Positions 39,219 to 58,867 of a stretch of DNA of 64,000 nt are shown in pieces (within the stretch, counting starts at the first letter, position 1; every line of letters begins with the position of its first letter). The position numbers and the translations under genes were made by a program. The stretch covers positions 742,843 to 806,842 of the forward strand of contig NZ_KE384082.1 of the NCBI RefSeq assembly GCF_000423705.1, in the 5' to 3' direction. Origin of the DNA: Stappia stellulata DSM 5886 (GTDB taxonomy: Bacteria; Pseudomonadota; Alphaproteobacteria; Rhizobiales; Stappiaceae). Below the pieces are notes generated by a model. It was given only the letters and a program-made list of their open reading frames with translations. It was not told the DNA's origin and did not search any database.

Positions 39219-39869
39219 TTACTCCGGCGCGTCCGCCTGTTGCGGCTCTTTCGCGCTGTCGGCCGCGCGAAGAAGCCCCACGGCGCGGCGCATGCGCTGC
39301 ACGGCGGTGAAATGCGACAGTACGCCGTAAACCCCAAGGCCGCCGGCGATCACCGTCGCGCCCGATACACCGGCGAACGGCGCGGCGCCGGCCACAAGCA
39401 ACATCGCGCAGAGAAAGATGATCCGTTCCAGCCGCTCGAAAAAATCCGGCCAGGCTTCATTGCTGATCGGGATCTCGATGGCGGTGCGCGCCTTGGCGTA
39501 GCTGGTCAGCACCCCGCCGGAGAAGGCGAAGAGCGCCAGACCCCACATGTCTTGCGCGGCCGCGAGGGCGGCAAGCACCACAAGCTCCTGATACCGGTCG
39601 ACCATCGCATCGAAATACCCGCCCGACCGCGTGCACATGTCGCGCCGGCGTGCGACCGCGCCATCGAGCGCATCGAAGGCAAAGGACACCGCCAGCGTCC
39701 CCCCGAAGAGCGCGGCGTTGCCGTGCCACAGATAGGCGAGCGACGCGAGACAGATCAGCACGAGACCCGTTGCCGTCACCTGATTGGGCGTCATGCGCGC
39801 ACGCACCAGCGGCGTTGAGAGGCTTTCCCACAGCGGGTCGATGTGGCGCTTGAACAATCCGTCGATCAT
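39219..39869 (-). CDS. CDP-alcohol phosphatidyltransferase family protein (first of two)
   Basis: This 216-residue inner-membrane enzyme contains the full family motif D-x2-DG-x2-AR-x8-G-x3-D-x3-D (DALDGAVARRRD...GGYFDAMVDR). The motif binds a divalent metal and the CDP donor. About five or six membrane helices are visible. Such enzymes move a phospho-alcohol from CMP onto an acceptor, or phosphatidyl from CDP-diacylglycerol onto an alcohol. The acceptor cannot be read here. It lies 66 bp downstream of an FGGY kinase gene on the same strand and begins the lipid locus. It may use an alcohol phosphate made by that kinase or CMP-aminoethylphosphonate. Confidence 0.88.
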   Translation of the reverse strand: MIDGLFKRHIDPLWESLSTPLVRARMTPNQVTATGLVLICLASLAYLWHGNAALFGGTLAVSFAFDALDGAVARRRDMCTRSGGYFDAMVDRYQELVVLAALAAAQDMWGLALFAFSGGVLTSYAKARTAIEIPISNEAWPDFFERLERIIFLCAMLLVAGAAPFAGVSGATVIAGGLGVYGVLSHFTAVQRMRRAVGLLRAADSAKEPQQADAPE

Positions 39870-39935
39870 GGGTGCGAGATCCCTTGAAGGCGCCGCGCCG
39901 GGCGGGCGGTGCGGGGTGGAGACATGCGGGCGGCC

Positions 39936-41495
39936 TCAGCGGTAAAGCGACAACAGCCCCTTGCGGTGACGGTCGAGACGGGCGGCCCGGGCCGCGCAAC
40001 GCGCCACGCCCGCCGGCTCGGGATCATAGATTTCGACCGGTCCGGACGACAGGACGGGGGCTGCCGCCCTCACGCTGTCGAACCAGCCAAGAGCCGCGCC
40101 GGCAATGGCGGCGGCCCCGCGCACCCCCGCATGGCGCGGTGCGCGTACCTCGACCCTGCGGTCCAGCGCATCGGCGAGCAATTGGGCAAACCGGGGGTTC
40201 ACGGCGGCGCCGCCGACCAGCGGCAACGGCAGATCGTGGCGCACGCCCTTCTGGCGCGCCACTTTCGACATCGCCCAGCGCATGTTGAGCGCAACCCCCT
40301 CCAGGGTCGCCCGCAACACCGCCTTTCGGTCATGGCGCATGCTCAGACCGTAAAACACGCCGCGCAGGCGATCATCGTCCACCGGCACACGCTCGCCGGC
40401 AAGCCAGGGCACGAACAGCGGGTCATCGTCCTGCATGTCGCCAATGCCGTCATAGAGTGTATCCAGCGCGCTGTCGCTGTCGCCAGCGGAGTCCCCGACA
40501 AGACGGGCTGCCCAGGCGAAAGCCGTGCCGGCACTCTCCTGCGTCGCGATCAGAAGCGGTCGGAACCCGATGCTGCTGGCAATGGTCGCATAGGAATGGA
40601 AGACATCGAGCCGGCGGGACGGGAAAAACCCGCTGAGCCAGGAACTCGTGCCGGCATAGGCGTGAAGCTGGCCATCCTCCATCGCCCCAGAGCCGATCGC
40701 CGTCGCCCCGACATCGCCGGCGCCGGCGACGACGGGAAGCCCCGCGCCAAGTCCAAGCCCAGCCGCGGCCTGCTGGGTGAGACGCCCTGCAACGGAGGCG
40801 CCGTCGACGATCTCCGGCAACTTGTCGAGGGGGATGCCGAGCCGTCCGGCAAGGTAGGACGACCAGCCCTCCCGGCCCGGGCGCGTGTCCATCATCCAGG
40901 TCAGGTTCGCGCTGTCGGCGGTCGTGGTGAGAGCGCCTGTGGCGCGGAAGATCAGCCAGTCCTTGACGTCGAGAAGCTTGTGCGACGCCGCCCATACGTC
41001 CGGCTCATGAGCCTTGATCCACAGCATCTTCGCCGGCGGGTCCATGCCGTTGTGCGACGGCGCGCCGTTGGCGATCCTTGTCCAGGTGAACAGCTTGTCG
41101 GCCCGGTAGCCCGCGACCGATGGAAATCCGCCGTTCATCTTGCGCGACAAGGCGCCGGCGCGCTTGTCGAGCGAGATCAACGCCGGGCGCAGCACCGCCC
41201 CTTCACGGTCGACGCACACCAATCCGCACATCTGCGCGCAAGGGACGAGCGCAACCGTGCGCTCCTTCAGATCCGGGATCTCGTCCTGCAATGAGGCTAC
41301 GCCCCGGCGCAGCGCCTGCCACCAGTCGTCCGGCTGTTGTTCGGCCATGCCCGGGCCGGGAAAGGAAAGCGGGTAGGATTCGGCCGCCGTCGCCTTGATC
41401 GCCAGCGAGCGGTCGAGCGCGGCAAGCTTCACGCCCGATGTCCCGAAGTCGGCCGCGATCACCAGATCGCGGCTGTCCTGCTTGTCCCTTGTCAC
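39936..41495 (-). CDS. FGGY-family carbohydrate kinase
   Basis: This 519-residue kinase has the N-terminal phosphate-binding motif (AADFGTSGVKLAAL), a substrate-domain segment (PCAQMCGLVCVDREG) and the C-terminal GGAAVNPRFAQLLAD family signature. It phosphorylates a sugar or polyol in the cytosol. Sequence alone does not separate xylulo-, ribulo- or ribitol-type kinases. GTG 41495 is preferred because GGGGGA lies six bases upstream. Placed just before a CDP-alcohol phosphotransferase gene, it could supply a polyol phosphate for a head group. Confidence 0.85.
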   Translation of the reverse strand: MTRDKQDSRDLVIAADFGTSGVKLAALDRSLAIKATAAESYPLSFPGPGMAEQQPDDWWQALRRGVASLQDEIPDLKERTVALVPCAQMCGLVCVDREGAVLRPALISLDKRAGALSRKMNGGFPSVAGYRADKLFTWTRIANGAPSHNGMDPPAKMLWIKAHEPDVWAASHKLLDVKDWLIFRATGALTTTADSANLTWMMDTRPGREGWSSYLAGRLGIPLDKLPEIVDGASVAGRLTQQAAAGLGLGAGLPVVAGAGDVGATAIGSGAMEDGQLHAYAGTSSWLSGFFPSRRLDVFHSYATIASSIGFRPLLIATQESAGTAFAWAARLVGDSAGDSDSALDTLYDGIGDMQDDDPLFVPWLAGERVPVDDDRLRGVFYGLSMRHDRKAVLRATLEGVALNMRWAMSKVARQKGVRHDLPLPLVGGAAVNPRFAQLLADALDRRVEVRAPRHAGVRGAAAIAGAALGWFDSVRAAAPVLSSGPVEIYDPEPAGVARCAARAARLDRHRKGLLSLYR

Positions 41496-41670
41496 CACCT
41501 GTCCCCCGGGGTCCGCCGACCATGCGTTTGCCCATGCGCCGGGACCGGGTTTATAGAGGTCGGCGACAAAAATGAACTCCCCAACGCATACCGGCAGCGC
41601 AAGATGCCCGGTCGGCGGCACCCGCGCATGGCCCCCGACCGGACGGCAGACCGGAGAAAGCCGCAGTTCC

Positions 41671-42660
41671 ATGGCCGAAGGCGAGACACCAACCGTTTCA
41701 CCGACAAAGATCGACGTCGTTTACACATGGGTCGACGACACGTTTCCCGGCTATGCCGAAACGCTCCGGGAATTCGCGACGACCCGCCACGATGCCAACC
41801 CCAACCGGACGCGCGACAATCTCGAGATGCTGCGCTATTCGCTGCGGTCGCTCGAGCGTCACGCGCCATTCGTGCGCCGCGTGCACCTGCTGACCTGCCG
41901 CCCGCAGGTGCCGGACTGGTTGAACGCTGAACACCCCGATATCTCGGTCGTGCATCACGACGAGATCATGGCGCCGTCGGTCCTGCCGACCTTCAACTCC
42001 TTCGCCATCATCAGCCATCTGGGCAAGATGGCCGGCGTGAGCGAGCGCTTTCTCTATTGCGAGGACGACACGCTGTTCCTGTCGCGGGCGCGGCTGCCGG
42101 ATTTCCTGCGGGATGACGGTCACACGCGAGTTTTCGCCAAGAACAGGGATGCCCCGGTTCATGCCCGGACCAAACCGGACGACAGCCCGTGGAACCTGTC
42201 GCTTGCGAATGCCAATGCCGCTCTCGACCGCGCGTTCACGCCGCATCCCCGGCGGTTTCTCGCCCATGGACCGCGGCTGATCGAACGCCAGTCGTTCGAG
42301 GAGATGTGCGACCGCTTTCCCGAGGAGATCGCGGCGACGCGGGCATCGCGTTTTCGCGGTGGCGACAATGTCCCGCCGGAGTATCTCTATCCGCAATACC
42401 TGCTTGAAAAAGGCGCGGGCGTCCTTGCATCGGACGCCGAAACCCGCCGGATGGCCGGCTATGCCTCCATCGACAACTTCCTGCCCTGGACCTGGCTTCA
42501 ACTCGCCCGGCTCGACCGCCTCCGGCCGGTGACGGCAACCCTCAACGACAATTTCAACAACCGGCCGAACCCGCGCGTCGTGGCCCACGTTCGCAACCGC
42601 CTGAAGCAATGGTTTCCCGAGCCGTCTCGCTTCGAGCACCCGGACCGTCCACCTGCCTGA
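41671..42660 (+). CDS. Stealth-family sugar-phosphate transferase
   Basis: This 329-residue protein shows the four conserved Stealth regions: CR1 KIDVVYTWVDDTF, CR2 LRYSLRSLERHAPFVRRVHL plus FNSFAIISHLGKM and FLYCEDDTLF, CR3 around ASRFRGGDNVPPEYLYPQY, and CR4 TATLNDNFNN. Stealth enzymes are related to GlcNAc-1-phosphotransferase and link hexose-1-phosphate units through phosphodiesters in capsules and surface glycans. Its stop codon directly touches the stop of the oppositely oriented glycosyltransferase gene. A role in decorating the surface molecule made by this locus is inferred. Confidence 0.85.
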   Translation: MAEGETPTVSPTKIDVVYTWVDDTFPGYAETLREFATTRHDANPNRTRDNLEMLRYSLRSLERHAPFVRRVHLLTCRPQVPDWLNAEHPDISVVHHDEIMAPSVLPTFNSFAIISHLGKMAGVSERFLYCEDDTLFLSRARLPDFLRDDGHTRVFAKNRDAPVHARTKPDDSPWNLSLANANAALDRAFTPHPRRFLAHGPRLIERQSFEEMCDRFPEEIAATRASRFRGGDNVPPEYLYPQYLLEKGAGVLASDAETRRMAGYASIDNFLPWTWLQLARLDRLRPVTATLNDNFNNRPNPRVVAHVRNRLKQWFPEPSRFEHPDRPPA

Positions 42661-43788
42661 TCAGGACCGCAATGCGTCGCGATAGATCTCCACGAAGGCC
42701 GGTCCGGTGGCCTCGACCCCAAAGGAAAGCGCATGCGGCAGGGCCCATGCGCCCAGCGCCCGGCGAGCCGGTGCATCGGCGCACAAGTCGATCAGTTTCA
42801 CCGCAAGCGCCGATGCATCGCCCGGCCGCACCAGCAGCTGTTCGCCCGGCCCGGTCAGCACCGTGCGATAGCCCTCGTTGGCGGCAGCCACCGGCAGGGT
42901 CCCCGCCGCCATCGCCTCGATCAGGATGAGACCGAAGCTCTCGCCGTAAAGTGATGGCGCCACCAGCAGATCGGCCTTCGCGACAAGCCGCCGCGCGCTG
43001 TCGGCATCCGGCGAGGGGACAAAACGAATGCGCTCACCGCCCGCGCCTGTCATCGCCTCGCGAACCAGCCCCTCCTGCGGCCCGCCGCCGGCGACGGTCA
43101 GCCGCACGCGGGGAAAACGGGCAGCGACCTCGGGCCAGGCCGCGAGCAACACGCCAAGCCCCTTGCGCGCCTCGAAACGGCCGAGAAAAACGATCTCTGT
43201 GTCCGTGGTGTCGTCCGCCCTCCGCACCTGAGCGCCGACAGCCTGCCAAGGCGCGAGATCGATGGCCGGTGGCAGAACATGCGCCGCGATGCCGGCATCC
43301 TGCGGACGCAGATGCGCCAGCGGTGTCGCGGATGGAACGATGGCGGCACGCGAATGCGTCAGGAAATGACGCGCCGCCCGGCGCAGGGCGCGCGCGGCAA
43401 GCCCGCCCGTCTTTTCTTCCGGCAATGTCGCGTGAAAGGTGGTGACGGTTGGAAGGTCGAGATCCCGCCAGACCTGCCAGGCCATGAAAGGCGTCCAGGG
43501 CGTATGCAGATGGACGAGCTCCGCGCCCCAGTCGCGCAGCGCGCCAATCAGCGGACCACGGTCGCGCGATCGGGCGTAACTGATCTCAAAGCCGGTGCCG
43601 AACAACTGCGCCTTGATGGCGCGCCCGCAGTGATCGATGCCCGCAAGAGGCGCGTTCCGAAGAGGATGAGGTGCGACGACGCGCACATCGTGACCGGCCC
43701 GCACGAGCCACGCGGAGAGATCGCGAACATGCGCCTGCACGCCGCCCGGACGGGCAAGGTCATAGGGACAGATCTGGACGATCTTCAT
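42661..43788 (-). CDS. GT4 glycosyltransferase, PimA-like
   Basis: This 375-residue GT-B enzyme starts with MKIVQICPYDLARPGGVQAH, which closely resembles the opening of PimA-type phosphatidylinositol mannosyltransferases. The C-terminal donor-site motif LVAPSLYGESFGLILIEAMA (with the EX7E glutamates) and FLGRFEARKGLGVLL are typical GT4. It transfers a sugar from a nucleotide donor onto a lipid or glycan at the inner face of the membrane. An alternative ATG at 43809 overlaps the upstream CDP-alcohol transferase gene. Being beside a CDP-alcohol transferase and near Ino1, it may glycosylate an inositol lipid. Confidence 0.83.
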   Translation of the reverse strand: MKIVQICPYDLARPGGVQAHVRDLSAWLVRAGHDVRVVAPHPLRNAPLAGIDHCGRAIKAQLFGTGFEISYARSRDRGPLIGALRDWGAELVHLHTPWTPFMAWQVWRDLDLPTVTTFHATLPEEKTGGLAARALRRAARHFLTHSRAAIVPSATPLAHLRPQDAGIAAHVLPPAIDLAPWQAVGAQVRRADDTTDTEIVFLGRFEARKGLGVLLAAWPEVAARFPRVRLTVAGGGPQEGLVREAMTGAGGERIRFVPSPDADSARRLVAKADLLVAPSLYGESFGLILIEAMAAGTLPVAAANEGYRTVLTGPGEQLLVRPGDASALAVKLIDLCADAPARRALGAWALPHALSFGVEATGPAFVEIYRDALRS

Positions 43789-43798
43789 CGCTGGCGCA

Positions 43799-44524
43799 TC
43801 ATCTTTCATGCCGGGCAAGGGTCGCGATCATGCCCTCGGCGACATCGGCAAGCGCATAGACGAGCAGGAATACGACCAGCCAGGGCAGGGTGCCGCTCCA
43901 CCAGGCAAGCAGCACCGCAGGGGCGATCGCTCCGCTCAGTCCTGCAAAGAACCAGAAGACAACATCCACCGGACCGGACGCCCGCTCTCCCGCAGGAGCG
44001 GAAGCCTCGGCACCGCCCGCGCCGGCATCGCGCACGACCCTGGCGTAGAGCCGGACCCAGGCGGCCGCGCAACCGACGGCCGTCCAGACGGCACCGCTGT
44101 CGAGCACCCGGTCCGCCAAAAGCCCGATGCTGGAATAGAGTAACCCCCATTGCGCCATGTCGATCAGGAAATCCAGCGTTGCGCCGAGTCGGGACGTGCG
44201 CCCGGTGCAGCGGGCGAGACCTCCATCGACGCAATCGAGAACCTGAAACGCCATCGCGACCAGCCCGACCCCGAGAGCGGCCCGGTCCACCGGCAGCATC
44301 AATGCCAGAACGGGCATGGAAAGCACCAACGGCAGGGATGCGACGGTAACCGCGGTCGGCGAGACAGGCGTGCGTGCCAGCAGCCAGATAAGCGGAAAGC
44401 TCCAGATCCGATACAAGACCATCACGGCCCAGTCGCCGCGCAGCTCTCCCCTGCGCTTGTCCATGTCATAGTTCTGAACCACCCTGGCAAAGGTGGGACC
44501 GCCGTTCGTTTCGTTGTTGCTCAC
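43799..44524 (-). CDS. CDP-alcohol phosphatidyltransferase family protein (second of two)
   Basis: This 241-residue membrane enzyme has a perfect family motif (DCVDGGLARCTGRTSRLGAT then LDFLID). A 30-residue cytosolic N-terminus and about six helices are seen. The layout resembles di-myo-inositol-phosphate-phosphate synthases and related enzymes that use CDP-inositol, as well as phosphatidylinositol-phosphate synthases. It is divergent by 69 bp from a cytidylyltransferase gene, which could make its CDP-activated substrate, and is followed by a PimA-like glycosyltransferase. It starts with GTG. Confidence 0.87.
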   Translation of the reverse strand: MSNNETNGGPTFARVVQNYDMDKRRGELRGDWAVMVLYRIWSFPLIWLLARTPVSPTAVTVASLPLVLSMPVLALMLPVDRAALGVGLVAMAFQVLDCVDGGLARCTGRTSRLGATLDFLIDMAQWGLLYSSIGLLADRVLDSGAVWTAVGCAAAWVRLYARVVRDAGAGGAEASAPAGERASGPVDVVFWFFAGLSGAIAPAVLLAWWSGTLPWLVVFLLVYALADVAEGMIATLARHER

Positions 44525-44593
44525 CTGCCCTCTCTTGCCCCGCTGCCGGGCCTCGCATATGACTGGTTCGACTTATCATATTCCGGCGGGTCC

Positions 44594-45364
44594 ATGGTTG
44601 ACATCACTGCAGTTTTTCTGGCCGCCGGGCGCGGCGTGCGCATGGGCGAACGCGGACGCATGACCCCCAAGGGTTTGCTGTCGATCGGTGAGACGACCTT
44701 CGTCGAGGAAGCGGTCGCCACCTTGCGCGCGCACGGGATTTCGTCGCCGCGCATCGTTACCGGCCATCTCGCGGATCAATACGAGACGCTTGCCGCAGCC
44801 CGTCTGCCCGACGCCGAGCTGCGTCACAACCCCGACTTCGCCGACAAGGGGTCGCTTCACAGCCTGCTCGTTGGCTTAAGTGGACAGACGGGTCCGTGTC
44901 TTCTGCTGGAATCCGACCTGATTTTCGAACCGCGTGCCGTGGCGACCGCGATTGCCGATCCGGCGCAGGCCGCCCTGCTCGTTTCCGGCGCAACGGGCGC
45001 AGGCGACGAGGTCTATGTCTGGGCCGACAAGAAAGACGGCCAGGATTGCCTGCGGGACATGTCGAAGGACGCGGCGCGCTGGCCGGATCCCCATCACGGC
45101 GAACTTGTCGGCCTGACGTATCTTACCGCCAGGGCCGTGGCGCATCTCAACACGATCGGCCCCGAAATGGTCGCGCAGGATGCGATGACGGATTACGAAA
45201 GCGGCATCGTTGCGCTCGCCCGCGGCGAGCACGTCGCCTGCCCGAAGATCGAGGATCTCGCATGGGCGGAAGTCGACAATGAAGAGATGTTCGCGCGGGC
45301 AGCCGCCCAGGTTTATCCACGCATCGACGCAGCCCGCCGCGCGCACCCGCTAATGCGGGCGTGA
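44594..45364 (+). CDS. LicC/PntC-like nucleotidyltransferase (probable cytidylyltransferase)
   Basis: This 256-residue cytosolic enzyme has the sugar-phosphate nucleotidyltransferase start (VFLAAGRGVRMGERGRMTPKG). The metal/phosphate region (LLLESDLIFE) and C-terminal DLAWAEVDNEEMFARA are typical of LicC-, PntC- and inositol-phosphate cytidylyltransferases. It should join CTP with a phospho-alcohol or phosphonate to form a CDP/CMP-activated head group. Candidates are inositol-phosphate (from Ino1 in this locus), a polyol phosphate, or AEP. Its last 15 bases overlap the end of the convergent LptG-like gene. Confidence 0.8.
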   Translation: MVDITAVFLAAGRGVRMGERGRMTPKGLLSIGETTFVEEAVATLRAHGISSPRIVTGHLADQYETLAAARLPDAELRHNPDFADKGSLHSLLVGLSGQTGPCLLLESDLIFEPRAVATAIADPAQAALLVSGATGAGDEVYVWADKKDGQDCLRDMSKDAARWPDPHHGELVGLTYLTARAVAHLNTIGPEMVAQDAMTDYESGIVALARGEHVACPKIEDLAWAEVDNEEMFARAAAQVYPRIDAARRAHPLMRA

Positions 45365-46579
45365 CAGAACGATCTGTGCGACAAGCGTTCCGACAAGCGC
45401 GAACACGACGGCGATCCAGCTGCTGGTAAAGCCGGACAACGCGCCGATCTCGCCCATCGCCCAGGACACCTTCGTCGCCACGAGCGCGAAGTAACCGCAC
45501 AGCGCCAGCCCGACGATCCGACCCGGCGAGACGACACGGCCGGAGCCGGCGATCGGCGCCAGGCTGGCCCCGAGCAGCGCATAGGCGCCCGGCAGGAAGA
45601 ACGCCGCGATCCGCCGCCACAGGGCCGCATCGACATCCGCACCCTTCAACGGGTTGCCGTCTCCCGCCAGACGCTCAAGCGGCTGTTGCGGAAGATAAAA
45701 AGCCGGAATGCCGAAATAGGTCAGCGTGTCGGCAAGCACGTCGAGCCGCACGTCGAGCGTCTCGTAGCGCGAAATCAGATAGAGCGGATGTTCCGCATAG
45801 GCATCCGGTCGCGGCGCGTCCCTTTCGTCGCTGCCGGTCTCGGCAGCCGGCAGGCTTGCCCACAGGTCGACATCGTAAAGCCGCCAAAACCCGGGCCTGC
45901 CGGTCGGCTGGGCCTTGCGCGCGACGAGCACATCGCGCAGGTCGCCCGACACCACACCGCGATAAAGCTCCACGTCCCGAAGCTCCGGCGAATCGCTGCG
46001 CACGACCCGGGCGCGCAGCGCATTGCCGTTGACCACCAGCCAGTGCGTGCCCGACATCGCGCCCCTTGCGAACCGCGCGCCATAGGCGCCGAGCTGAAGC
46101 TCTGCCTGGGCAAAGACGGCGGCCGGCCGGCCCCAGCGTTCCAGGGTTCCCTGAAGCGCGCCGCTCAGGCCGGCGAAGACGGCAACCACCGCAAGCGTCT
46201 GGCGGGGCGACCAGCCGGCCGCAGCCAGGATCGTCGTCTCCCGGTTGAACAGTCGATAGAGTTCTGCGGCAAACAGTCCGATGAAGCAGGCGACGGGAAA
46301 CAGTCGGGTAACGATATCGACCGTGCGAAAGCCAAGATAAAGCGCCAGAACGCCGCCGCCCGAGCGACCGAGTTCGTCTGCCCGCGCCAGAACGCCATCG
46401 AGGTTCTGCGCCAGATCGATCGCCCAGGCGATGATCAGGAACATCAGCATCACGAGGCCCGTCACCTTCAGATAGAGCGCAAGCGCCCGACGTCCGGCGA
46501 TGCCGAAGATCGCCATGTGGGGTGCGATACCCGCCATCCACCCGTCCGCGCCGCGTGCTTGTGCCGCCTGCATGGTCAT
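45350..46579 (-). CDS. LptF/LptG-family permease (second of pair)
   Basis: This 409-residue inner-membrane protein has the YjgP/YjgQ layout: three N-terminal helices (around residues 30-125), a periplasmic beta domain (about 140-310), and three C-terminal helices. The segment LYRLFNRETTILAAAGWSPRQ matches the coupling-helix region of LptF/LptG that meets LptB. In lipopolysaccharide export these proteins pull lipid from the inner membrane into the Lpt bridge. It overlaps the preceding permease gene by four bases (ATGA). Confidence 0.8.
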   Translation of the reverse strand: MTMQAAQARGADGWMAGIAPHMAIFGIAGRRALALYLKVTGLVMLMFLIIAWAIDLAQNLDGVLARADELGRSGGGVLALYLGFRTVDIVTRLFPVACFIGLFAAELYRLFNRETTILAAAGWSPRQTLAVVAVFAGLSGALQGTLERWGRPAAVFAQAELQLGAYGARFARGAMSGTHWLVVNGNALRARVVRSDSPELRDVELYRGVVSGDLRDVLVARKAQPTGRPGFWRLYDVDLWASLPAAETGSDERDAPRPDAYAEHPLYLISRYETLDVRLDVLADTLTYFGIPAFYLPQQPLERLAGDGNPLKGADVDAALWRRIAAFFLPGAYALLGASLAPIAGSGRVVSPGRIVGLALCGYFALVATKVSWAMGEIGALSGFTSSWIAVVFALVGTLVAQIVLSRPH

Positions 46580-47799
46580 GCCCGTTCGCTCACGGGACGC
46601 AGCAAGGCTGCAGAGCGCAAGCCGATCGCCAACGTCAGAGCGAGCGCCAGTGCAAGGCCGATCGCGACACCCATTGCGGCCATGGCGAGGGGCTGCGCAC
46701 CGGCGATACCGCCAAGCAGCGCCCGCAGGCCGACATCGAGCGCAAGAAGCCCGGCGCAGGCGAGCGGCATGGCGAAATAGCCGGCCAGCCCGCCGGAGGC
46801 AAAGGCGCAGGCCAGCAAGGCGAGAAGCGGCGCGAGAAAGGCCGCGATCGCCCGGGCGAACCGCTCGCCGGCGATCTCGCGGGCATCCTGCCCCGCCTGG
46901 GTCCGGGCGGATGCGGGATCCAGCGCCTCCAGGAACGTCCATTCCCGCGCCACCGTCGTGCGTGCCGCATGATGCAGGATGTTTGTCAGGCTGACCGGAA
47001 CCGAGACGTTTTCCACCTTCACGCGCGGAAGCACCGGCACGTCCTTCAACTGCGGATCGCCAAGCGAGAACAGATTGGCGCCCCGCCCGCCACGCAGGAT
47101 CCCGCCGACGCGATCTTCAGGCGAAACCCGGACAAAGTCATAAGCGATCACCCGCCCGAGACCGAGACTGTAATTGCCCTCGGCATCCGGCCCGTCGAGC
47201 CGCCACTTGCCCGCCTGCGTCACACGCCAGGAGCCGTCCTCGCCCGGCTGGTGCACGAACAGGCTCTCATGCGGCGGAGACATCGAGGTGTCGCTGAGCG
47301 CGGCGAAGGTCTTGCCGCGGATGGTCTCGATCAGCGTCCCTTCACTGGGTTCGGTGATGCGGCGAAAAAGAAGGTCGCTCTTCAAGGTGAAGACCACGGA
47401 GCGGGTCAGGTTCTTTGCAAGCGGATCGATGAACCCGGACACGCCGAGGCTTGCGCCGAAGGCGCAAACTCCAAGGACGAGAGCGACCCTGAGCGGCAGC
47501 GCCGGCGAAACGCCCGCGGCTGACAGGGCGACCATCTCGCGCTCCTCGCGCGCTGCGACGAAGGCGAAATATCCGCCGATGACGCAGGCAAGCGCAAGCG
47601 CGAAATCAAAGATCTCCGGCGCGGTCAACACAAGGATCGACAGGGCCGCGACGACGTCTCCGCCGCTGCCGAGTACCTGTTCGAGGATCCCGGTAAGTTT
47701 CTCCGCCAGAAAGACAACCTCGATGGTCGCCAGAACGATGACGACCTTGACCACCACCCGCATCGTCAGCGAGCGATTGGACAGCGACCAGCCGATCAT
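46576..47799 (-). CDS. LptF/LptG-family permease (first of pair)
   Basis: This 407-residue protein has the same layout as its neighbour, with a coupling-helix-like segment AAREEREMVALSAAGVSPAL between helices 2 and 3. The classical partners near lptF-lptG in proteobacteria (lptD, surA, pdxA or pepA) are absent. The pair is instead embedded among sphingolipid, inositol and phosphonate genes. It may therefore be a dedicated exporter for those lipids, or simply the organism's only LptFG. Confidence 0.8.
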   Translation of the reverse strand: MIGWSLSNRSLTMRVVVKVVIVLATIEVVFLAEKLTGILEQVLGSGGDVVAALSILVLTAPEIFDFALALACVIGGYFAFVAAREEREMVALSAAGVSPALPLRVALVLGVCAFGASLGVSGFIDPLAKNLTRSVVFTLKSDLLFRRITEPSEGTLIETIRGKTFAALSDTSMSPPHESLFVHQPGEDGSWRVTQAGKWRLDGPDAEGNYSLGLGRVIAYDFVRVSPEDRVGGILRGGRGANLFSLGDPQLKDVPVLPRVKVENVSVPVSLTNILHHAARTTVAREWTFLEALDPASARTQAGQDAREIAGERFARAIAAFLAPLLALLACAFASGGLAGYFAMPLACAGLLALDVGLRALLGGIAGAQPLAMAAMGVAIGLALALALTLAIGLRSAALLRPVSERA

Positions 47800-47999
47800 C
47801 TCGCAACACCGGATGACGGGCGCGCCGCAAGACCGCGACCGCGAGGGCGTTGATCGTGAATGCGTCGCGCCATCGCTCCCAATTCCGTTTCGTGCTAGAT
47901 CACCGACCGAACCGGCCCCGGCCGAAAACCGGTCCCTTCCGGATCTGTTCCAACAGCGCGCAGACCGTGATTCCCTCGCGCCATCATAGGCCGCAGCCC

Positions 48000-49411: not shown

Positions 49412-49412
49412 T

Positions 49413-50244: not shown

Positions 50245-51357
50245 TCAAGCCTCCGTTTCACCCGCGAACGCAAGAAGACGGGCATAGCCTTCCGCATCTT
50301 CGAGCTGCACCGGCGGATGCTTGAACAGGAAGGCGCTGGCGTCGTCCACCGGACCGGAAAGCCCCTTGTCGCGGGCGATTGCCGCGCAACGGATGGCGAT
50401 CAGCGCCATGGCCGCGGCATTCGGCGAATCCTCGACCTCAAGGCGCATCTCCACATGGGTGCGCACGCCGCCGAACAGTCGCCCTTCCAGCCGGACATAG
50501 GCGACCTTGCGGTCATCAAGCCACGGCACGTAATCCGACGGGCCAATGCGGATCTCATTGTCCGACAGCCGCGAATTCATCGCCGTCTGTACCGCCTCGG
50601 TCTTGGATTCCCGCTTCATGGTGAGGCGGTCCATGTCCATCATGTTCAGGAAGTCGGTGTTGCCGCCGACGTTCAGCTGGTAGGTCTTGTCGACCTTCAC
50701 GCCGCGCATGTCGGCAAGCCGCGCCAGTGCGCGGTGGGTGATCGTGGCGCCGAACTGGGCCTTGAAGTCGTCGCCGACGATCGGAAGGCCCGCCTTGCGA
50801 AAGCGTGCCGCCCACGCGGGATCGGAGGCGATAAAGACCGGAATGCCGTTGACGAAGGCGCAGCCGGCCTCCAGCGCACATTCCGCATAAAATTCGGTCG
50901 CCTCGATGGACCCGACCGGGAGGAAATTGATCATTACCTCGGCGCGTGCCTGGCGCAGGGCCGCAACCACGCCGGCCTTGTCGAGCGCGGGCTCCTGCGA
51001 CACCACGAAACTGCGGTCCGGAGCCTGGTTGCGCATGAAGGCGGAGACGCCATCGAGATCCGGCCCGCGCATCACCGGCGCACGCATCTGCGCCAGGTCC
51101 TTGTGGAAAATCTCTGTGCAATTGGGCAAGGCAACGGCTGCCTCGCCGACAGTCCGTCCGACCTTGCGCGCATCGACATCGAAAGCCGCGACGATCTCCA
51201 CGTCCTCGGGACGGTAGCCGCCAAGGCTTGGAAACGGCACACCGATGGCCTCGTCGCCCAGGGCGCGGCAATAGGCAACGCCCTGAACGAGCGAACTGGC
51301 GCAATTGCCGGCTCCAACGATCGCCGTGCGGATCTGCTTGGCGGTAGTACCTGTCAT
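50245..51357 (-). CDS. ino1: Inositol-3-phosphate synthase
   Basis: This 370-residue NAD-dependent enzyme converts glucose-6-phosphate to inositol-3-phosphate. Seen are the NAD site VGAGNCASSLVQGV (residues 14-27), MINFLPVGSIEATEFYAECA, the catalytic-domain GDDFKAQFGATITHRAL and LNVGGNTDFLNMM. Length and pattern match the short bacterial/archaeal class. It opens a tight operon with the sphingosine-type reductase and CdsA-like genes, so it likely supplies the inositol head group for lipids. Confidence 0.93.
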   Translation of the reverse strand: MTGTTAKQIRTAIVGAGNCASSLVQGVAYCRALGDEAIGVPFPSLGGYRPEDVEIVAAFDVDARKVGRTVGEAAVALPNCTEIFHKDLAQMRAPVMRGPDLDGVSAFMRNQAPDRSFVVSQEPALDKAGVVAALRQARAEVMINFLPVGSIEATEFYAECALEAGCAFVNGIPVFIASDPAWAARFRKAGLPIVGDDFKAQFGATITHRALARLADMRGVKVDKTYQLNVGGNTDFLNMMDMDRLTMKRESKTEAVQTAMNSRLSDNEIRIGPSDYVPWLDDRKVAYVRLEGRLFGGVRTHVEMRLEVEDSPNAAAMALIAIRCAAIARDKGLSGPVDDASAFLFKHPPVQLEDAEGYARLLAFAGETEA

Positions 51358-51494
51358 GATCTTTTTCTTTGCCCCTGCGCGTCGTCCGGTGCGGCGACGG
51401 GCGCCGGCACCGGCAGGTCTTGTGTTCTGGCGCGCCGTTCCCTCGCGCGACCAGCCGAATTGTTTTGAACCGAGCTCCCTCGGCCGGTGCAGCG

Positions 51495-52178
51495 TTACTC
51501 TATCTGGATGCGTTCGACCAGCGCCTTGCCGGTGGCGATATCGCGCCCGATCACGCGCACCTCGCGCACGCTCGGCATGAACCCGTCTTCATTGACATCG
51601 ACATAGGCGTAGAGCGGCCGGAACACCCGCTCGCCCGCGGTCGCGGTGACGTTCACCCGCCCCGGCTCCACCAGCTTCAGCGTCGCCATCCGCTCGGGAT
51701 AGGACACCACATAGAGCTTGAAGACATTCGGATCGCCGGTTGCCTGGGCGCGAATGCCGAAAGCGAAATTATCCTCCACCATCTTCAGCGCCTTGCGCTC
51801 GCCCGTGGTGTTGAACCGCCGCCAGTAAGCGATCACCGGCTCATCCGGATCCAGCGTCCCGTCGTCGCGGAAGTTCGCGGCATAGACAACGGTGTTGGAA
51901 TTGGTCGAACGCTGCAGGTAAAACAGCATGCCGGGCTCGTCGGGCACCGGGAACTCGGGGCGCACGACCGGCAGTTCGTCGAGAAGTTCAACGCTTGACC
52001 CCCGCACGCTTTGTTCACTGCCCGGGCGAACTCGGGTGCCTTCCTGGGCCGAGGCGGGCGATCCGGCGACAACGAGGCTGATCGCAAGCGCAAGACCGCC
52101 GAGCCTTGCACCCATGCGCCGTCCGCGCCCCCAGGCCGCCGGCATCGCTTGCGTTTTCCCGTCGGTATCTGTCGGCAT
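51495..52178 (-). CDS. Secreted DUF4833 protein
   Basis: This 227-residue protein has a signal peptide (residues about 27-46, ending ASAQ), followed by a DUF4833-like domain (MLFYLQRSTNSNTVVYAANF, then PVIAYWRRFN and VEDNFAFGIRA). The family has no known function. Here it is encoded between serine palmitoyltransferase and Ino1 on the same strand, 26 bp after the former. It therefore probably acts in the periplasm on the lipid made by this locus. The start is uncertain (GTG 52190 or ATG 52178). Confidence 0.7.
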   Translation of the reverse strand: MPTDTDGKTQAMPAAWGRGRRMGARLGGLALAISLVVAGSPASAQEGTRVRPGSEQSVRGSSVELLDELPVVRPEFPVPDEPGMLFYLQRSTNSNTVVYAANFRDDGTLDPDEPVIAYWRRFNTTGERKALKMVEDNFAFGIRAQATGDPNVFKLYVVSYPERMATLKLVEPGRVNVTATAGERVFRPLYAYVDVNEDGFMPSVREVRVIGRDIATGKALVERIQIE

Positions 52179-52204
52179 CTTCACTTGCACCGCTGAACCG
52201 GCGC

Positions 52205-54017: not shown

Positions 54018-55178
54018 TCAAGAGATCACTTTCTGTTTCATCTCTGACACAACCGCCTTCGTCGCCGTCAGGAACGCCTCGATGGTGAGGGAATCGATTG
54101 CGCCGATCACCCCCACCCGGAAGGTGCCGCGCCCGGTCATCTTTCCGGCATAGATCGCAAAACCGCGTGCCCGAAGCGCCTCATAAAACGTCTCGAAGGA
54201 AAACCAGTCGTCCGCCGGCTCGACGAAGGAGGCTATCACGGGCGCTTGTCGCGCCGGATCGAGGGCCGGCTGGAACCCGAGACGGTCCATGCCCGAAAGA
54301 AGGGTGGCGAGGTTCTGCGAATAGCGCTCGAGCCGCGCGGGCGGGCCGCCCTCCTCCTCCAGTTCGGCAAGCGCCGCATCCAGCGCCGCAATCACATGCG
54401 TCGGCGGGGTAAACCGCCACTGCCCGCCATTGGCAAGCGCTGCCGCCTGGGCCTGGAGATCGAGAACGACGGACGGCGCGCGTCCCCGCGCAGCCTCAAG
54501 CAGCTCCTTGCGGCACACCACGAAGCCAAGTCCCGGAACGCCCTGCAGGCACTTGTTGGACGATGCGGCCATCGCAGCAAGCTCCAGGCCGCTCATGTCG
54601 ACGGACAGGGCGCCGAAACCGCTCATGCTGTCGACCAGAAGCCAGCGCCCTTCGGCGCGCACACAGCTTGCGATGTCCTCCAGGGGGTTGAGCAAGCCCG
54701 AGGTCGTCTCGCAATGGACCATCGCAACGAAAGCAATGGCCGGATCGAGCCGCAGCCGCCGCGAGACTTCGGCAGGGTCATGCACCTCGGTTTCCGCGAC
54801 CTCGTAGATCTCCACCGCGCGACCGCTCTTGCGACAGATATCGGCCATGCGATGACCATAGGCACCGTTGACCAGAAGCAGAACCCGCTCTCCCGCCCCG
54901 ACGAACGTCGTCAGCATGGCCTCGACGGCAAAGGTGCCGCTGCCCTGCAGGGGCACGCAGACATGATCCTCTGCCGTTCCGCCCGACAGTGCGCGAATGC
55001 GGTCGAACACGCCTTGCGACAGGGCGACGAAGGCAGGATCCCGCGATCCCCAGTCGCGGAGCATGGCTTCTTTCACACGGGCGCTGGTTGTCAGCGGTCC
55101 GGGCGTCAGGAGCACCGGCGTCTCCTTGCCCTCAATCGAACGGGTGGCGGGGGTCTTCGCTTGTGGCGCACTGCTCAT
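54018..55178 (-). CDS. phnW: 2-aminoethylphosphonate-pyruvate transaminase
   Basis: This 386-residue PLP enzyme interconverts phosphonoacetaldehyde plus alanine and 2-aminoethylphosphonate plus pyruvate. Markers are LLTPGPLTTSARVKEAML, VPLQGSGTFAVEAML, the PLP Lys209 in SSNKCLQGVPG and GRWLLVDSMSGFGALSVD. In phosphonate breakdown it runs one way. Here, encoded with PEP mutase and phosphonopyruvate decarboxylase, it should form aminoethylphosphonate. Its start overlaps the decarboxylase stop by four bases (ATGA). Confidence 0.92.
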   Translation of the reverse strand: MSSAPQAKTPATRSIEGKETPVLLTPGPLTTSARVKEAMLRDWGSRDPAFVALSQGVFDRIRALSGGTAEDHVCVPLQGSGTFAVEAMLTTFVGAGERVLLLVNGAYGHRMADICRKSGRAVEIYEVAETEVHDPAEVSRRLRLDPAIAFVAMVHCETTSGLLNPLEDIASCVRAEGRWLLVDSMSGFGALSVDMSGLELAAMAASSNKCLQGVPGLGFVVCRKELLEAARGRAPSVVLDLQAQAAALANGGQWRFTPPTHVIAALDAALAELEEEGGPPARLERYSQNLATLLSGMDRLGFQPALDPARQAPVIASFVEPADDWFSFETFYEALRARGFAIYAGKMTGRGTFRVGVIGAIDSLTIEAFLTATKAVVSEMKQKVIS

Positions 55179-56320
55179 GATCCCAGCTCCGCAAGATAGG
55201 CCCGAAAGCGGCGCGCCACATCGCGCGGCGCGACCGTCGGCCGGCCAAGTCCGTCCACCGGATCCGTCGAGACCCTGACATGAAGCAACCGGGGACCCGG
55301 CATCGCAAGGGCGGCCTGAAACGCCGCGACCGCGCCGTCGAGACCCGCGGCCCGTGCCGCGAAGCGATAACCGCAGGAAGCCGCGACCTGCGCGAAATCG
55401 ACGTTCGGCGAGACCGTCGCCTGCCCGCCGGTCGACAGGTGACAGCCGTTGTCCAGGACAATATGGGTCAGGTTTTCCGGCGCCTGCGCGCCGATGGTGG
55501 CCATGTTGCCGAGTTTCATGAGAGCCGCGCCGTCGCCATCCAAAACGACGATCTCGCGGCTTGAATTCAAGGCAGTGCCCAGACCGATCGCGCTGGCGCC
55601 GCCCATCGAACCGACGCAATAAAGATTGCGCGCCTCATCGCCGAGCGTAAAGAGCTCACGGCCCGTGTGCCCGGTGGTGGCGATCACGCCCGCGCCCGCC
55701 GGAAGGCACGGCAACAGTGCCTCGAGCGTGTCGATCCGCCGCCTTGCGGCCGCTGCCGCATCGAAATCGGCAACCTGCGACGGCGCGCGCTTCTGAAGGT
55801 CCGTTTCATCGAGCGGCCCCGCAGCCACCGCGCCCTTGGGCTGAACCAGCGCCACAGGCAGACCGGTTTCCCGCATCAGGCGCGCGGCCCGCGCAAGGCT
55901 GCTCTCCACATCGGCCTCGTTTTCCGGAAAATCGACCCGCCGCGCGCCGATCAGGTCGAGCAGCGGTTGGGTGATCCGCCCCATCAATTCATGCTGCGGC
56001 TCGTCCGTCAGCCCCGGCGCGCCGCGCCAGGTCACGATCATCAGCGTCGGGATGGCGAAGGGATGATTGAGCGAGGTGATCGGATTGACCGCGTTGCCAA
56101 GGCCCGAATTCTGGCACATGACCGCGGTCTCGCGCCCGGCAAGCCATGCACCGGCGGCAATCGCGACGGCCTCGCCCTCGCTGGTCGCACCGACATAGCG
56201 GGTCTGCGCATCCGAGATCGCCGCATTCATCAAGGGCGTCAGGAAACTGCAGGGAACCCCCGTGAAAAAATCGATGCCCTGCCGCTTGGCGGCATCGAGA
56301 AACTGTCCGGCTTCGATCAT
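55175..56320 (-). CDS. ppd: Phosphonopyruvate decarboxylase
   Basis: This 381-residue thiamine-diphosphate enzyme decarboxylates phosphonopyruvate to phosphonoacetaldehyde, pulling the unfavourable PEP mutase reaction forward. The ThDP fold is shown by the catalytic Glu region GATSEGEAVAIAAGAWLAG, the active-site PCSFLTPLMNAAI and the diphosphate/metal motif LDGDGAALMKLGNMATIG. It lies seven bases after the PEP mutase gene and overlaps phnW by four bases. Confidence 0.93.
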   Translation of the reverse strand: MIEAGQFLDAAKRQGIDFFTGVPCSFLTPLMNAAISDAQTRYVGATSEGEAVAIAAGAWLAGRETAVMCQNSGLGNAVNPITSLNHPFAIPTLMIVTWRGAPGLTDEPQHELMGRITQPLLDLIGARRVDFPENEADVESSLARAARLMRETGLPVALVQPKGAVAAGPLDETDLQKRAPSQVADFDAAAAARRRIDTLEALLPCLPAGAGVIATTGHTGRELFTLGDEARNLYCVGSMGGASAIGLGTALNSSREIVVLDGDGAALMKLGNMATIGAQAPENLTHIVLDNGCHLSTGGQATVSPNVDFAQVAASCGYRFAARAAGLDGAVAAFQAALAMPGPRLLHVRVSTDPVDGLGRPTVAPRDVARRFRAYLAELGS

Positions 56321-56327
56321 CTTGCCA

Positions 56328-57971
56328 TCACACCGCGTCCCGAGCCTGGGCCAGGTCCATGAGGTCGTTCACATTGCCCCAGTAACCGCGCACGTACACG
56401 ACCCCGATCCGCTCGCCCTCGCCGGCCAACCGGGTCAGGACCGCACCGAGATCGGCGGTATCGAGGGTCCCCTCTCCCTCCATCGCAGCCAGTGTCTCGC
56501 GGATCCTGCTTACCCCATCGGCATTGGCGCGCATCAATCCGATGAACGCGCCGTTGGCTTCGGCTCCGTCGGCAACGAACCGCGTCAGGGAAACCGCTTC
56601 GCCGGTCGCCTCGAGATCGGCATCATGGGGCTGCGAACAGGCGACCGCATCCCGAAGAGGCTGACCGTCGGCCCGCGTTTCCGCCCTGGGATCGACGAGA
56701 ACGACGATATCGGCCTGCGCCTCCTCCAGAAGCGACAGGAAAAACGGCCGGTACAGGATATCGCCGTAGGAAACGATCGTGTCGCCTTCGCCCTGTGTCA
56801 GCGCAAGCGCCAGCGACCGGGCCTCGCCGGTGCTGTCATGGGCCGGGTTTTCCACCTTGCGAATGCCCGGCACGGCCACCGCATCCTCCCGGTAGCCCAC
56901 TACGACGGAAATGTCGGAGACGCCGTGCCGGCCCAGTGCCTCGACCTGGCGGCCGAGAAGCGACTGTCCGCGAACGGGCACCATGCACTTGGGACGCTCC
57001 GCTGTCAGATCGCCCAGCCCCTTGCCCCGTGTCGCCGCAAGAATGACGGCACGCGCGGGATCGCGTGTCGACAGATACCGCTTTTCCGCCTGTTCCAGCT
57101 CCTGCGCGCCGGCGAGCGCAAAGACATCGCCGAGCGGAGCGACCGTATCCTCGACCTCCAGCAGCGTTTCCTGCGCCTTCAGCCTGGCGCAAGTGTCGCG
57201 CATCGCCTGGATCGAGCTTCTGAGATTGTGATTGGCCCAGATCACCATCGCCGCATTGGCGTCGCGGAACCGGTCGGTCGGCGTGCGGTAGTATTTGGTC
57301 GGAATGAGCACCACCGGCGCGCGGTTCTCCCATTGCCGGCAGAAATCGAAGATCTCGTCTGCGGTGCTCTTCTTTGAGTGGATGACGATCGCATCCGCGC
57401 CCGCATCCACATAGGCATGGGCCCGGGTCAGCGCCTCATCCACGCCCCGGCCCGCGATCAGCGCCTCGACCCGTGCAACCACGGAAAAATCCGGGTGGGT
57501 CTGCGTGTCCTTGCCGGCCTTGATCTTTCCGCAGAACTCGTCGACGTCGGCCAGCGGCTGGTTCTCGCCCAGGAAGGAATTCGTCTTGGGAAAGATCTTG
57601 TCCTCGATGCACACGCCGGCGATGCCGCGCTCGCAGAGCTTTTGCACGAAACGCCGGAAATTGTTGAAATTTCCGTAGCCGGTATCGCCGTCGACCAGGA
57701 TCGGCAGGGACGAAGCGTCGGACATGTACTCCAGCATGTCGAGAACCTGGGTCCACGACAGTTCGTTGTTGTCCCTGACGCCCAGCGTCGCCGACATCGA
57801 CAGTCCGGATGCCCAGATCCCCTCGAACCCCGCCTCCTCGACGATGCGCGCCGAAAGCCCGTTGTGCGCTTCCATCAGGAAGGCGAGGTCGGGGCGGGTC
57901 AGCATCTGCCGCAGGCGGGTGAACTTCGACGCCTGGGCCGGCTGTCGGTCGGGGGAACCATCGAAATGCAA
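56328..57971 (-). CDS. pepM: PEP mutase fused to a cytidylyltransferase (PepM-PntC type)
   Basis: This 547-residue bifunctional protein has an N-terminal PEP mutase domain (about 20-300). It carries the diagnostic E-D-K-x5-N-S motif ([10 protein letters not shown], residues 123-132) and metal-binding [12 protein letters not shown]-terminal nucleotidyltransferase (about 308-547) follows, starting [18 protein letters not shown] with [11 protein letters not shown] mutase forms phosphonopyruvate, committing to phosphonate synthesis. The fused domain probably activates aminoethylphosphonate with CTP to CMP-AEP for transfer onto a lipid or glycan, as shown for PntC enzymes. The TTG start follows AAAGGGCAG; the next in-frame ATG is at 57905. 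Confidence 0.92.
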
Positions 57972-58060
57972 GAGACTGCCCTTTCTGGATTGGCACGGTC
58001 ATCGGCGAAAACGCGGGCCCGGTGAAAGGACCGCCGGTTCCGGCGCCAAGAGATGAAACG

Positions 58061-58867
58061 TCAGACGCGGAATGTATAGTCGCCGGAGGGGTCGCGCTCC
58101 ACATCGGGCGGGTAGGCCGCGTGCTTGTCGGCGTAATAGGCTGCCAAGTGATCGCCTTCGGACGCGCGATTGTAGGTCGCGAAATAGAGCCGGCGCTGCT
58201 CGCGAGAGCGATTGACGCAAGAGCGGTGCGGACAATAGCTGTCGATGAGAACGACATCGCCCGGCTCGGTTTCCACCGGCACGAACGTCATGCTCTTCAT
58301 GTCATCGTCGCTCAGCGGCTCCCACGCGCGGAACATGCCATGTCGATGGTGGCCGGCTGCGAATTCGACGCACCCGTTTTCTTCCGTCGCGGCGTCGATC
58401 GACACCATGATCGACACGAACCGGCTGGCGTAGTTCCACCAGCCGGCCTGCTGGTCCTGATGCGGTGTGAAGCCGGCGCCCCCGGGGCGCTTGAAATTAA
58501 GCTTTTCCTTGAAGAGCACGGCGGGCTCCCCGAGCGCCACCGCCGCATACTCCCCCAGCGCGCGGCCGAGGGCTGAAAACACGGGAGAATGACGTTCGAG
58601 ATACTCCATCCGGCTGATGACCCGCCGCTCTTCGGGGTCGCAGACCGTCTCGCCGTAGACCCAGTGCTGGCCGGGCTGTTCCGGCATCGATTCCAGCCGT
58701 TGCACTTCCTGTTCGATCAACTGGAGCGCCGGCAGCGAAAGAACCTGTTTGAGAAGGAGAAAACCGTCCTCGCCATAGCGGCGGCCGTCATCGACGGTCA
58801 TGGCCCGAAGGGCGAATTCGGGCCCGGCTTGTGGAGCCGCCTTCGCATCAATGCCTGAGTGAGTCAT
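58061..58867 (-). CDS. Phytanoyl-CoA dioxygenase-family (PhyH) Fe(II)/2-oxoglutarate oxygenase
   Basis: This 268-residue oxygenase has the facial-triad His136-x-Asp138 (FTPHQDQQAGWW), the distal His214 in SYCPHRSC and a nearby Arg for 2-oxoglutarate. The start at 58867 follows AGGAGGCGTGAAC. It lies 89 bp upstream of pepM on the same strand. Related enzymes hydroxylate phosphonates or lipid chains; 1-hydroxy-2-aminoethylphosphonate is known from bacterial sphingophosphonolipids. It probably hydroxylates aminoethylphosphonate or the lipid made by this locus. The substrate is not shown by sequence. Confidence 0.83.
   Translation of the reverse strand: MTHSGIDAKAAPQAGPEFALRAMTVDDGRRYGEDGFLLLKQVLSLPALQLIEQEVQRLESMPEQPGQHWVYGETVCDPEERRVISRMEYLERHSPVFSALGRALGEYAAVALGEPAVLFKEKLNFKRPGGAGFTPHQDQQAGWWNYASRFVSIMVSIDAATEENGCVEFAAGHHRHGMFRAWEPLSDDDMKSMTFVPVETEPGDVVLIDSYCPHRSCVNRSREQRRLYFATYNRASEGDHLAAYYADKHAAYPPDVERDPSGDYTFRV

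Follow-up and report, generated by a model that had tools for sequence, protein, structure and literature searches.

Introduction

Several described systems share parts of a gene set that we found in Stappia stellulata DSM 5886, where an 18-gene block occupies positions 39219-58801 of the 64,000-nt stretch of DNA analysed here (the window). The Caulobacter phosphosphingolipid region CC_1168-CC_1152, like the Stappia block, brings together long-chain-base synthesis, a CDP-alcohol transferase, a nucleotidyltransferase and a second LptF/LptG pair, and its export is proposed to resemble lipopolysaccharide (LPS) transport (PMC11324152). According to the same report, it is unknown how sphingolipids get to the outer membrane in bacteria. 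Unlike the Stappia locus, the Caulobacter region contains a true serine palmitoyltransferase (Spt) and a ceramide synthase (CerS), and the available text has no wording on inositol, phosphonates or cytidylyltransferases (PMC11324152). The Bacteroides inositol lipid cluster BT_1522-BT_1526 shares with our locus a myo-inositol-phosphate synthase, a PIPS with the same CDP-alcohol phosphotransferase (CDP-AP) motif and a PgpA-like phosphatase (PMC8791184, PMC9246714). It is a five-gene operon for which the available descriptions mention no phosphonate or Lpt genes (PMC8791184, PMC9246714), and its BT_1522 is described as transferring the head group to ceramide, a function with no counterpart seen among the window genes.

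Phosphonate genes like those in the window form the Pnt cluster of Treponema denticola, with a PepM-nucleotidyltransferase fusion, a separate PntC, Ppd and AEPT (PMC6697681). The neighbours of Pnt clusters are LicD-like phosphotransferases or glycosyltransferases, whereas those in the window are a CDP-AP and inositol lipid genes; the steps downstream of 2-aminoethylphosphonate (AEP) are called enigmatic (PMC6697681). S. stellulata DSM 5886 itself is a model marine AEP consumer (PMC8316502).

On balance, we favour a reading in which the locus serves to produce and export a single family of surface glycolipids. This would most likely be a glycosylated inositol phospholipid built on a long-chain-amine backbone, decorated with AEP in Stappiaceae and exported through an Lpt-like permease pair of its own. 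A search of open-licence PMC papers found no system of this gene composition. The original prediction, made from the DNA letters alone, had likewise named no described system; within that search the statement stands, with the qualification that an association of LptFG with sphingolipid genes has already been reported from Caulobacter.

Gene content of the locus

Genes were called by codon usage and named through Pfam, NCBIfam and PDB searches. Gene families, the AEP enzymes, the PntC active-site residues, the CDP-AP motifs, conservation and modularity are all read from sequence in what follows. The 18 genes, with the layer to which we assign each, are:

39219-39869, minus strand: CDP-AP, PIPS-like, core; PF01066, motif DX2DGX2ARX8GX3DX3D intact
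39936-41498, minus strand: FGGY carbohydrate kinase, xylulokinase-like, core; family searches
41671-42660, plus strand: Stealth-family transferase, add-on; Stealth CR2 and CR3 above cut-off, CR1 and CR4 below
42661-43809, minus strand: GT4 glycosyltransferase, PimA-like, core; PDB match to PimA, 131.7 bits, residues 6-355
43799-44524, minus strand: second CDP-AP (CDP-AP2), candidate CMP-AEP transferase, add-on; PF01066, intact motif
44594-45364, plus strand: PntC-like CTP:2-aminoethylphosphonate cytidylyltransferase, add-on; PDB match to Tde-PntC, E 9.7e-35
45350-46579, minus strand: LptG-like permease, divergent second copy, core; family searches, tree
46576-47799, minus strand: LptF-like permease, divergent second copy, core; family searches, tree
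48000-48458, plus strand: PgpA-family phosphatase, candidate inositol-lipid phosphate phosphatase, add-on; PF04608
48461-49411, minus strand: divergent CdsA-like CTP:lipid-phosphate cytidylyltransferase, core; PF01148
49413-50240, minus strand: short-chain dehydrogenase (SDR), candidate ketone reductase partner of the alpha-oxoamine synthase (AOS), core; family searches
50245-51357, minus strand: Ino1, myo-inositol-phosphate synthase, core; PF01658
51495-52184, minus strand: DUF4833 protein, core; PF16117
52205-53443, minus strand: AOS, capsule-locus (RkpG-type) clade, core; NCBIfam, PDB, trees
54018-55115, minus strand: 2-aminoethylphosphonate transaminase (AepT), phosphonate module; TIGR03301, 409.7 against a cut-off of 360.8
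55175-56320, minus strand: phosphonopyruvate decarboxylase (Ppd), phosphonate module; TIGR03297, 405.2 against a cut-off of 312.5
56328-57971, minus strand: phosphoenolpyruvate mutase (PepM) fused to an NTP-transferase domain, phosphonate module; TIGR02320, 387.9 against a cut-off of 319.55
58061-58801, minus strand: PhyH/PhnY-like oxygenase, optional, AEP-hydroxylase candidate; PF05721, NF052437 133 against a cut-off of 500

Every gene named in the original prediction was located by family searches within 39219-58867; the DUF4833 gene (51495-52184) is an addition to that list. A correction also concerns strand: the Stealth, nucleotidyltransferase and PgpA genes, three of the four add-ons, lie on the plus strand, each convergent with a neighbour, and only the add-on CDP-AP2 runs on the minus strand.

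Conservation and layered organization

Ino1 is present in 24 of the 61 genomes searched, the window's own included, and the regions flanking the other 23 Ino1 genes were fetched. All 16 genes from the FGGY kinase to pepM were matched by tblastn, at 43-95% identity, in 15 of 15 Stappiaceae regions (12 from the same genus, 3 from a second), and the PIPS gene followed in all eight regions that were extended downstream. The locus genes thus co-occur beyond chance, as the original prediction had proposed to check across relatives. The nearest named genome in the Ino1 comparison is S. stellulata SN27-3 (Ino1 95%). Seven of the other eight Ino1 regions hold Ino1 and at most three weak matches, and the eighth (L202) is a related yet different locus; three regions without the full locus (L197, L198 and L201) are whole contigs shorter than 10 kb.

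In a wider set of related loci, the best 80 of 212 were analysed by tblastn homology. PepM, Ppd and AepT are present in 11, five hold most of the core without those three, two (L039, L040) are cut contigs with a partial core, one (L043) has a partial set, and 61 show Ino1 and stray matches at most, some on contigs below 5 kb. Ten of these loci (L025-L033 and L045) lie on the same contigs as ten of the regions above, so the two counts are not independent. In some high-GC loci the gene caller gave wrong frames or missed genes (L202, L043, L170, L036), and homology matches were therefore used in their place. A 494-aa fusion seen in L034 was rejected as a gene-caller artefact.

A class-level relative, G101, carries AOS, DUF4833, Ino1, SDR, CdsA, LptF, LptG, GT4, FGGY and PIPS genes on one strand in the order of the window (AOS 58%, Ino1 69%, PIPS 62%). 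Its locus stretch gave no matches to the add-ons PgpA, Stealth, PntC and CDP-AP2. From this arrangement we define the core operon as the ten genes from AOS through PIPS, present alone in G101. The core order is kept in Rhodobacteraceae as well, where five loci (L035-L038, L041) have the nucleotidyltransferase inserted between LptG and GT4; CDP-AP2 occurs in four of the five and Stealth in three. Stealth was not matched in the L036, L037 and G101 stretches. Among the loci examined, PgpA and the PepM-Ppd-AepT block are added in Stappiaceae and in L034, a Mesorhizobium metagenome-assembled genome (MAG). PepM above cut-off was found in none of eight non-phosphonate genomes searched, and the PhyH gene is present in 6 of 16 Stappiaceae loci, the window counted (5 of 15 besides it). 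Judged by gene content, the locus is layered, with a core, four add-ons (PgpA, Stealth, PntC, CDP-AP2) and an AEP-synthesis module. Since core loci occur without PepM, and G101 without a PntC or CDP-AP2 match, the phosphonate genes are not a fixed component of the locus.

A gene of the fatty-acid desaturase family lies between GT4 and Stealth in L034 (18562-19611), L035 (17314-18375), L038 (17751-18812) and L041 (17892-18968); it was not seen in the Stappia loci.

The inositol-lipid module

The inositol-lipid genes named in the original prediction are borne out by Ino1, the PIPS-like CDP-AP, PgpA and the PimA-like GT4. Ino1 is the sole PF01658 match in the genome (119 bits, cut-off 27). The top three NCBIfam matches of the transferase at 39219 are inositol-phosphate transferases, all below their equivalog cut-offs, and its PDB matches are weak, to DIPPS (4mnd) and a mycobacterial PIPS (6h5a) at 37 bits each. 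Among solved structures, PimA enzymes are closest to the GT4, with 131.7 and 130.2 bits against 66.7 for the best other match. The locus CdsA is the lowest-scoring of three PF01148 genes in the genome; with two higher-scoring genes elsewhere, it looks dedicated, probably to a particular lipid.

In Bacteroides, a PgpA-like protein is required for phosphatidylinositol and was assigned as the phosphatidylinositol-phosphate phosphatase (PMC9246714). PgpA at our locus is the genome's only PF04608 match, and the single PgpA likewise sits at the locus in G002, G013, G024, G055 and G070, as in the window genome (G000). G014 and G020, which belong to the same family but lack the locus, have no PgpA. 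The four Rhodobacteraceae genomes tested and G101 each have one PgpA, located outside their locus stretch. The synthase, the PIPS-nearest CDP-AP and the PgpA-like phosphatase of a two-step inositol-phosphate lipid pathway are thus all present.

Two side observations concern this module. In the genomes of L037 and L038 (G073 and G074), about 21 kb separate Ino1 from the one PgpA gene upstream of it, which falls beyond the stretch fetched; this is possibly a loose link. L043, from a Hyphomicrobiales MAG, has Ino1, PIPS-like, PgpA and GT4 homologues beside an LptF homologue, together with an ATPase 48% identical to that of L202 and Wzt-type and ABC-2 exporter genes; it represents another inositol-lipid/Lpt association.

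AEP synthesis and activation

AEP synthesis and its activation by CTP, both foreseen in the original prediction, are well founded. PepM, Ppd and AepT exceed their NCBIfam cut-offs, and PepM carries the motif EDKxxxxxNS in the alignment. The stand-alone enzyme (44594-45364), listed earlier as a second cytidylyltransferase, is indeed present, and it turns out to be the clearer AEP-activating enzyme than the PepM-fused domain. Its best PDB match is the Treponema PntC at 123.5 bits, the next reaching 28.7, and the alignment retains R15, K25, E104, K153 and E196 of Tde-PntC. R15, K25 and K153 are reported as catalytic, and E104 and E196 as surrounding the AEP amine (PMC6697681). In the alignment, the C-terminal domain fused to PepM (56328-57065) lacks R15, the nucleotide-loop arginine, and E104, the amine-contact glutamate; it may therefore be inactive or use another substrate.

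PepM above cut-off and a PntC-like gene (at least 289 bits; next 39.6) are found in the same 16 of 61 genomes. At E 0.001, 35 of the 61 genomes show some match to the PntC-like gene, the 19 beyond these 16 all below 40 bits. Of the 16 PepM genes, that of G007 contains an internal stop. Over genomes, Fisher's test gives 4.9e-15; all 16 positives come from two genera, so that relatedness explains much of this figure.

CDP-AP2 adjoins the PntC-like gene, has an intact CDP-AP motif and is absent from L035. Its PDB matches are weak (best E 1.1e-4). We regard CDP-AP2, from its position and motif, as a candidate CMP-AEP transferase. The locus would thereby offer a candidate lipid transferase for CMP-AEP.

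The same two genes could be read otherwise, as making CDP-inositol and transferring inositol phosphate in the manner of an alternative Bacteroides vulgatus cluster, with the phosphonate genes serving another product. The arrangement of an NTP transferase and a CDP-AP beside Ino1 is the one described in PMC9246714, and four Rhodobacteraceae loci retain both genes in genomes that show no PepM above cut-off. The sequence of the nucleotidyltransferase speaks against it: AEP-specific Tde-PntC scores 123.5 bits and an inositol-1-phosphate cytidylyltransferase 13.2, and both glutamates that reportedly face the AEP amine (PMC6697681) are retained. Furthermore, no HAD family match occurs among the locus genes, and the core already has a separate PIPS-like transferase. 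With the comparison based on the description of the B. vulgatus cluster rather than on its proteins, we consider this explanation very unlikely.

A marine species known as an AEP consumer (PMC8316502) would, with AEP activation for lipids, also be a likely AEP-lipid producer. The S. stellulata SN27-3 genome (L026) carries the AEP synthesis genes of the locus.

The lipid backbone

The original prediction called the AOS a serine palmitoyltransferase. This name is not upheld: the protein falls below every curated NCBIfam Spt cut-off and outside the Spt clade in trees. Against the alphaproteobacterial Spt model it scores 196 bits, with a cut-off of 670; among 190 genomes of the class, 24 reach at least 432 bits with this model, only two of them above the cut-off, and the other matches listed stay below 263. 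In the tree, the AOS groups with capsule-locus enzymes (support 100/100), separate from the Spt group (100/97). BioF and ALAS form long branches, which leaves their position unsure; the clade of the window AOS still has 100/100 support. An Spt identity based on the best match was dropped once the trees had placed the AOS outside the Spt clade.

The SDR, predicted as a KDSR-like reductase, is present and is a candidate ketone reductase partner of the AOS. Its identity is 37-38% with the SDRs that accompany two AOS of capsule loci; with the SDR next to Spt in G055 it is 37% across 192 residues. DUF4833 and Ino1 separate it from the AOS in the window.

These results bear on the sphingolipid that had been predicted as the product. 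If the product were a genuine ceramide-based sphingolipid bearing inositol phosphate and/or AEP as head groups, the AOS would have to be a divergent Spt and a ceramide synthase would have to act from elsewhere in the genome. The best PDB match of the AOS is a Sphingobacterium Spt at 200 bits, modestly above KBL at 186.5, and the AOS alignments keep Lys, His and Arg positions that we take to be catalytic. The locus of G055 (L202, L213) combines Ino1, DUF4833, PgpA, LptFG, GT4, CDP-AP and an ABC ATPase with a KDSR-like SDR, CerS (40%) and a true Spt that is 50% identical to one from an alphaproteobacterium. Sphingolipid and inositol-lipid genes therefore share a neighbourhood there, which keeps the sphingolipid idea alive in weaker form. 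Set against it are the tree position of the AOS and the CerS query, which matched none of 13 locus genomes and all four controls, one of them the query's source genome. The name of this query was assigned by position, next to LptFG in a locus that also contains Spt and a fatty acyl-AMP ligase; the query itself has no NCBIfam match and a GNAT match below threshold. In addition, acpR, aasR, cerR and CerS gave no tblastn match in loci L025-L045. Their labels in the reference loci were set by gene order and size, and a later family check identified a fatty acyl-AMP ligase, an epimerase and an acyl carrier protein, with Spt above cut-off. An AOS that is not a canonical Spt and an empty CerS query leave a ceramide-based sphingolipid unproven, and we judge it unlikely.

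The capsule relatives of the AOS allow another reading. On S. meliloti pSymB and in Shinella, the AOS lies between a polyketide synthase (PKS)-type synthase and an SDR, beside capsule genes, and the nearest plasmid match, from Acidisoma, is also beside capsule genes. We assume the names RkpA/RkpG/RkpH (WcbR/T/S) for these capsule-plasmid genes. The window resembles such rhizobial capsule loci in having an AOS of the same clade with an SDR; unlike them, it has no PKS partner and no capsule export genes. The AOS and SDR might make a capsule-type lipid anchor for a lipid-linked phosphoglycan assembled by the locus; Stealth, whose domain is present, would act in a polymerase-like manner and AEP would be placed on the glycan. 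We hold this to be improbable: no RkpA-type PKS or fatty-acid synthase partner with KS and AT domains stands beside the locus AOS, a separate PKS-AOS pair exists on contig 3, no capsule-type ABC-2 export genes occur in the window block, and Stealth goes unmatched in three of the stretches described above.

The pair on contig 3 of the window genome (about 160.7-169.7 kb; L129, 1238-10209) consists of a mono-modular 2527-aa synthase with KS, AT, DH, ER, KR and carrier domains, and, after it, a second AOS that shares 43% identity with that of the window; it is a capsule-type PKS-AOS pair.

Proposed export: LptF/LptG and DUF4833

The predicted export genes proved to encode an LptF/LptG pair additional to the standard one of the genome. 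The standard LptF and LptG on contig 1 score 219 and 201 bits, the locus pair 73 and 70. In the tree, in which long branches were flagged, the locus proteins form clades of their own, apart from the standard pairs and from those of canonical Spt loci, the latter taken from Spt carriers other than Caulobacter. The locus pair was accordingly not adopted as orthologous to the Spt-locus pairs. LptF and LptG of G055 are closer to the locus type than to the Spt-locus type, and we read the ABC ATPase of G055 as LptB-like.

DUF4833 exceeds its cut-off in two of 385 genomes of the class, the window's own and G101, the latter with the core operon. Its structural model is all-beta with a mean pLDDT of 80.4. 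A resemblance to LptC or LptA is neither supported nor excluded by the fold search with this model, and its part in lipid transfer is a presumed one. The locus ties a separate LptFG pair and the conserved DUF4833 to one pathway, in a genus with cultured strains.

Proposed pathway and its weighing

We propose that Ino1 would form inositol-3-phosphate and that the locus CdsA would use CTP to activate a lipid phosphate. The PIPS-like transferase would couple inositol phosphate with the CDP-activated lipid, PgpA, or another phosphatase where PgpA is absent, would strip the extra phosphate, and the PimA-like GT4, with Stealth where present, may attach a sugar or sugar-phosphate. AOS and SDR would provide a long-chain amino alcohol, which we regard as all or part of the lipid's backbone. 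AEP would be made in Stappiaceae by PepM, Ppd and AepT, the stand-alone PntC would convert it to CMP-AEP, and CDP-AP2 may transfer AEP onto the lipid or its sugar. The divergent LptF/LptG, perhaps aided by DUF4833, would extract the lipid from the inner membrane, probably with LptB and the bridge used in common with LPS. From CMP-AEP and inositol phosphate onwards we infer the substrates, and likewise the nature of the backbone, the sequence of reactions, export and what DUF4833 and the FGGY kinase do.

Several observations weigh against a single glycolipid pathway. An N-acyltransferase was not found in the 13 locus genomes with the CerS query, family searches of the block genes revealed no LptB, LptC or LptA within the window block, and the DUF4833 model had no PDB fold match at E<=0.001 in Foldseek. 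G001, of the same genus (89% complete, 7% contaminated), has neither Ino1, nor a PntC match, nor PepM above cut-off. L035 has the nucleotidyltransferase and lacks both CDP-AP2 and an AOS match, and L036 has no FGGY or Stealth match. The five Rhodobacteraceae loci keep most of the core and the nucleotidyltransferase in genomes, some of them MAGs, without PepM above cut-off. The homologue of L041, the only one of the five compared, is PntC-like by PDB search (114 bits, next 41). Without PepM, AEP would have to be imported or the enzyme would use another substrate; for these homologues, AEP import or phosphoethanolamine use is possible. The match of PepM and PntC across genomes may also reflect one inheritance. 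Finally, a 574-bp gap separates the AOS from AepT and the phosphonate genes; together with the opposite strands it points to several transcripts, and AOS and phosphonate genes need not share one.

The gap, and the occurrence of the core without phosphonate genes, would also fit two merely neighbouring pathways, an inositol lipid operon and a phosphonate operon. This is distinctly improbable in our view: the PntC-like gene is located within the core block and, of the 61 genomes, occurs in exactly the 16 with PepM above cut-off, and the two gene sets are adjacent in all 15 Stappiaceae regions as well as in L034, the Mesorhizobium MAG.

The product predicted for a single glycolipid pathway, and the product only, resembles lipids of Trypanosoma cruzi, a eukaryote with AEP on inositol-glycan anchors and long-chain-base lipids, namely AEP-modified glycosylphosphatidylinositol anchors and AEP-ceramide (PMC5648825). 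Taken furthest, the locus would encode a bacterial counterpart of these AEP-glycoinositol lipids: a mannosylated, AEP-decorated outer-membrane glycolipid with a long-chain base and inositol phosphate, made from one locus and carried outward by a third, dedicated type of LptFG pair with DUF4833 as a new periplasmic partner. The backbone need not be ceramide. We put this extended form forward tentatively, as somewhat unlikely. Bacteriovorax stolpii is only distantly related to Stappia. Its sphingophosphonolipids, bacterial phosphonate lipids on a sphingoid backbone (PMC5648825), can be likened to the predicted lipid by product.

Sequence context

Outside the block, GC content falls to 53% at window positions 10001-12000, compared with about 65% around it. 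This segment contains a tRNA-Met on the minus strand (11999-12075), and genes were not called from 10075 to 12661; it is possibly the boundary of an island.

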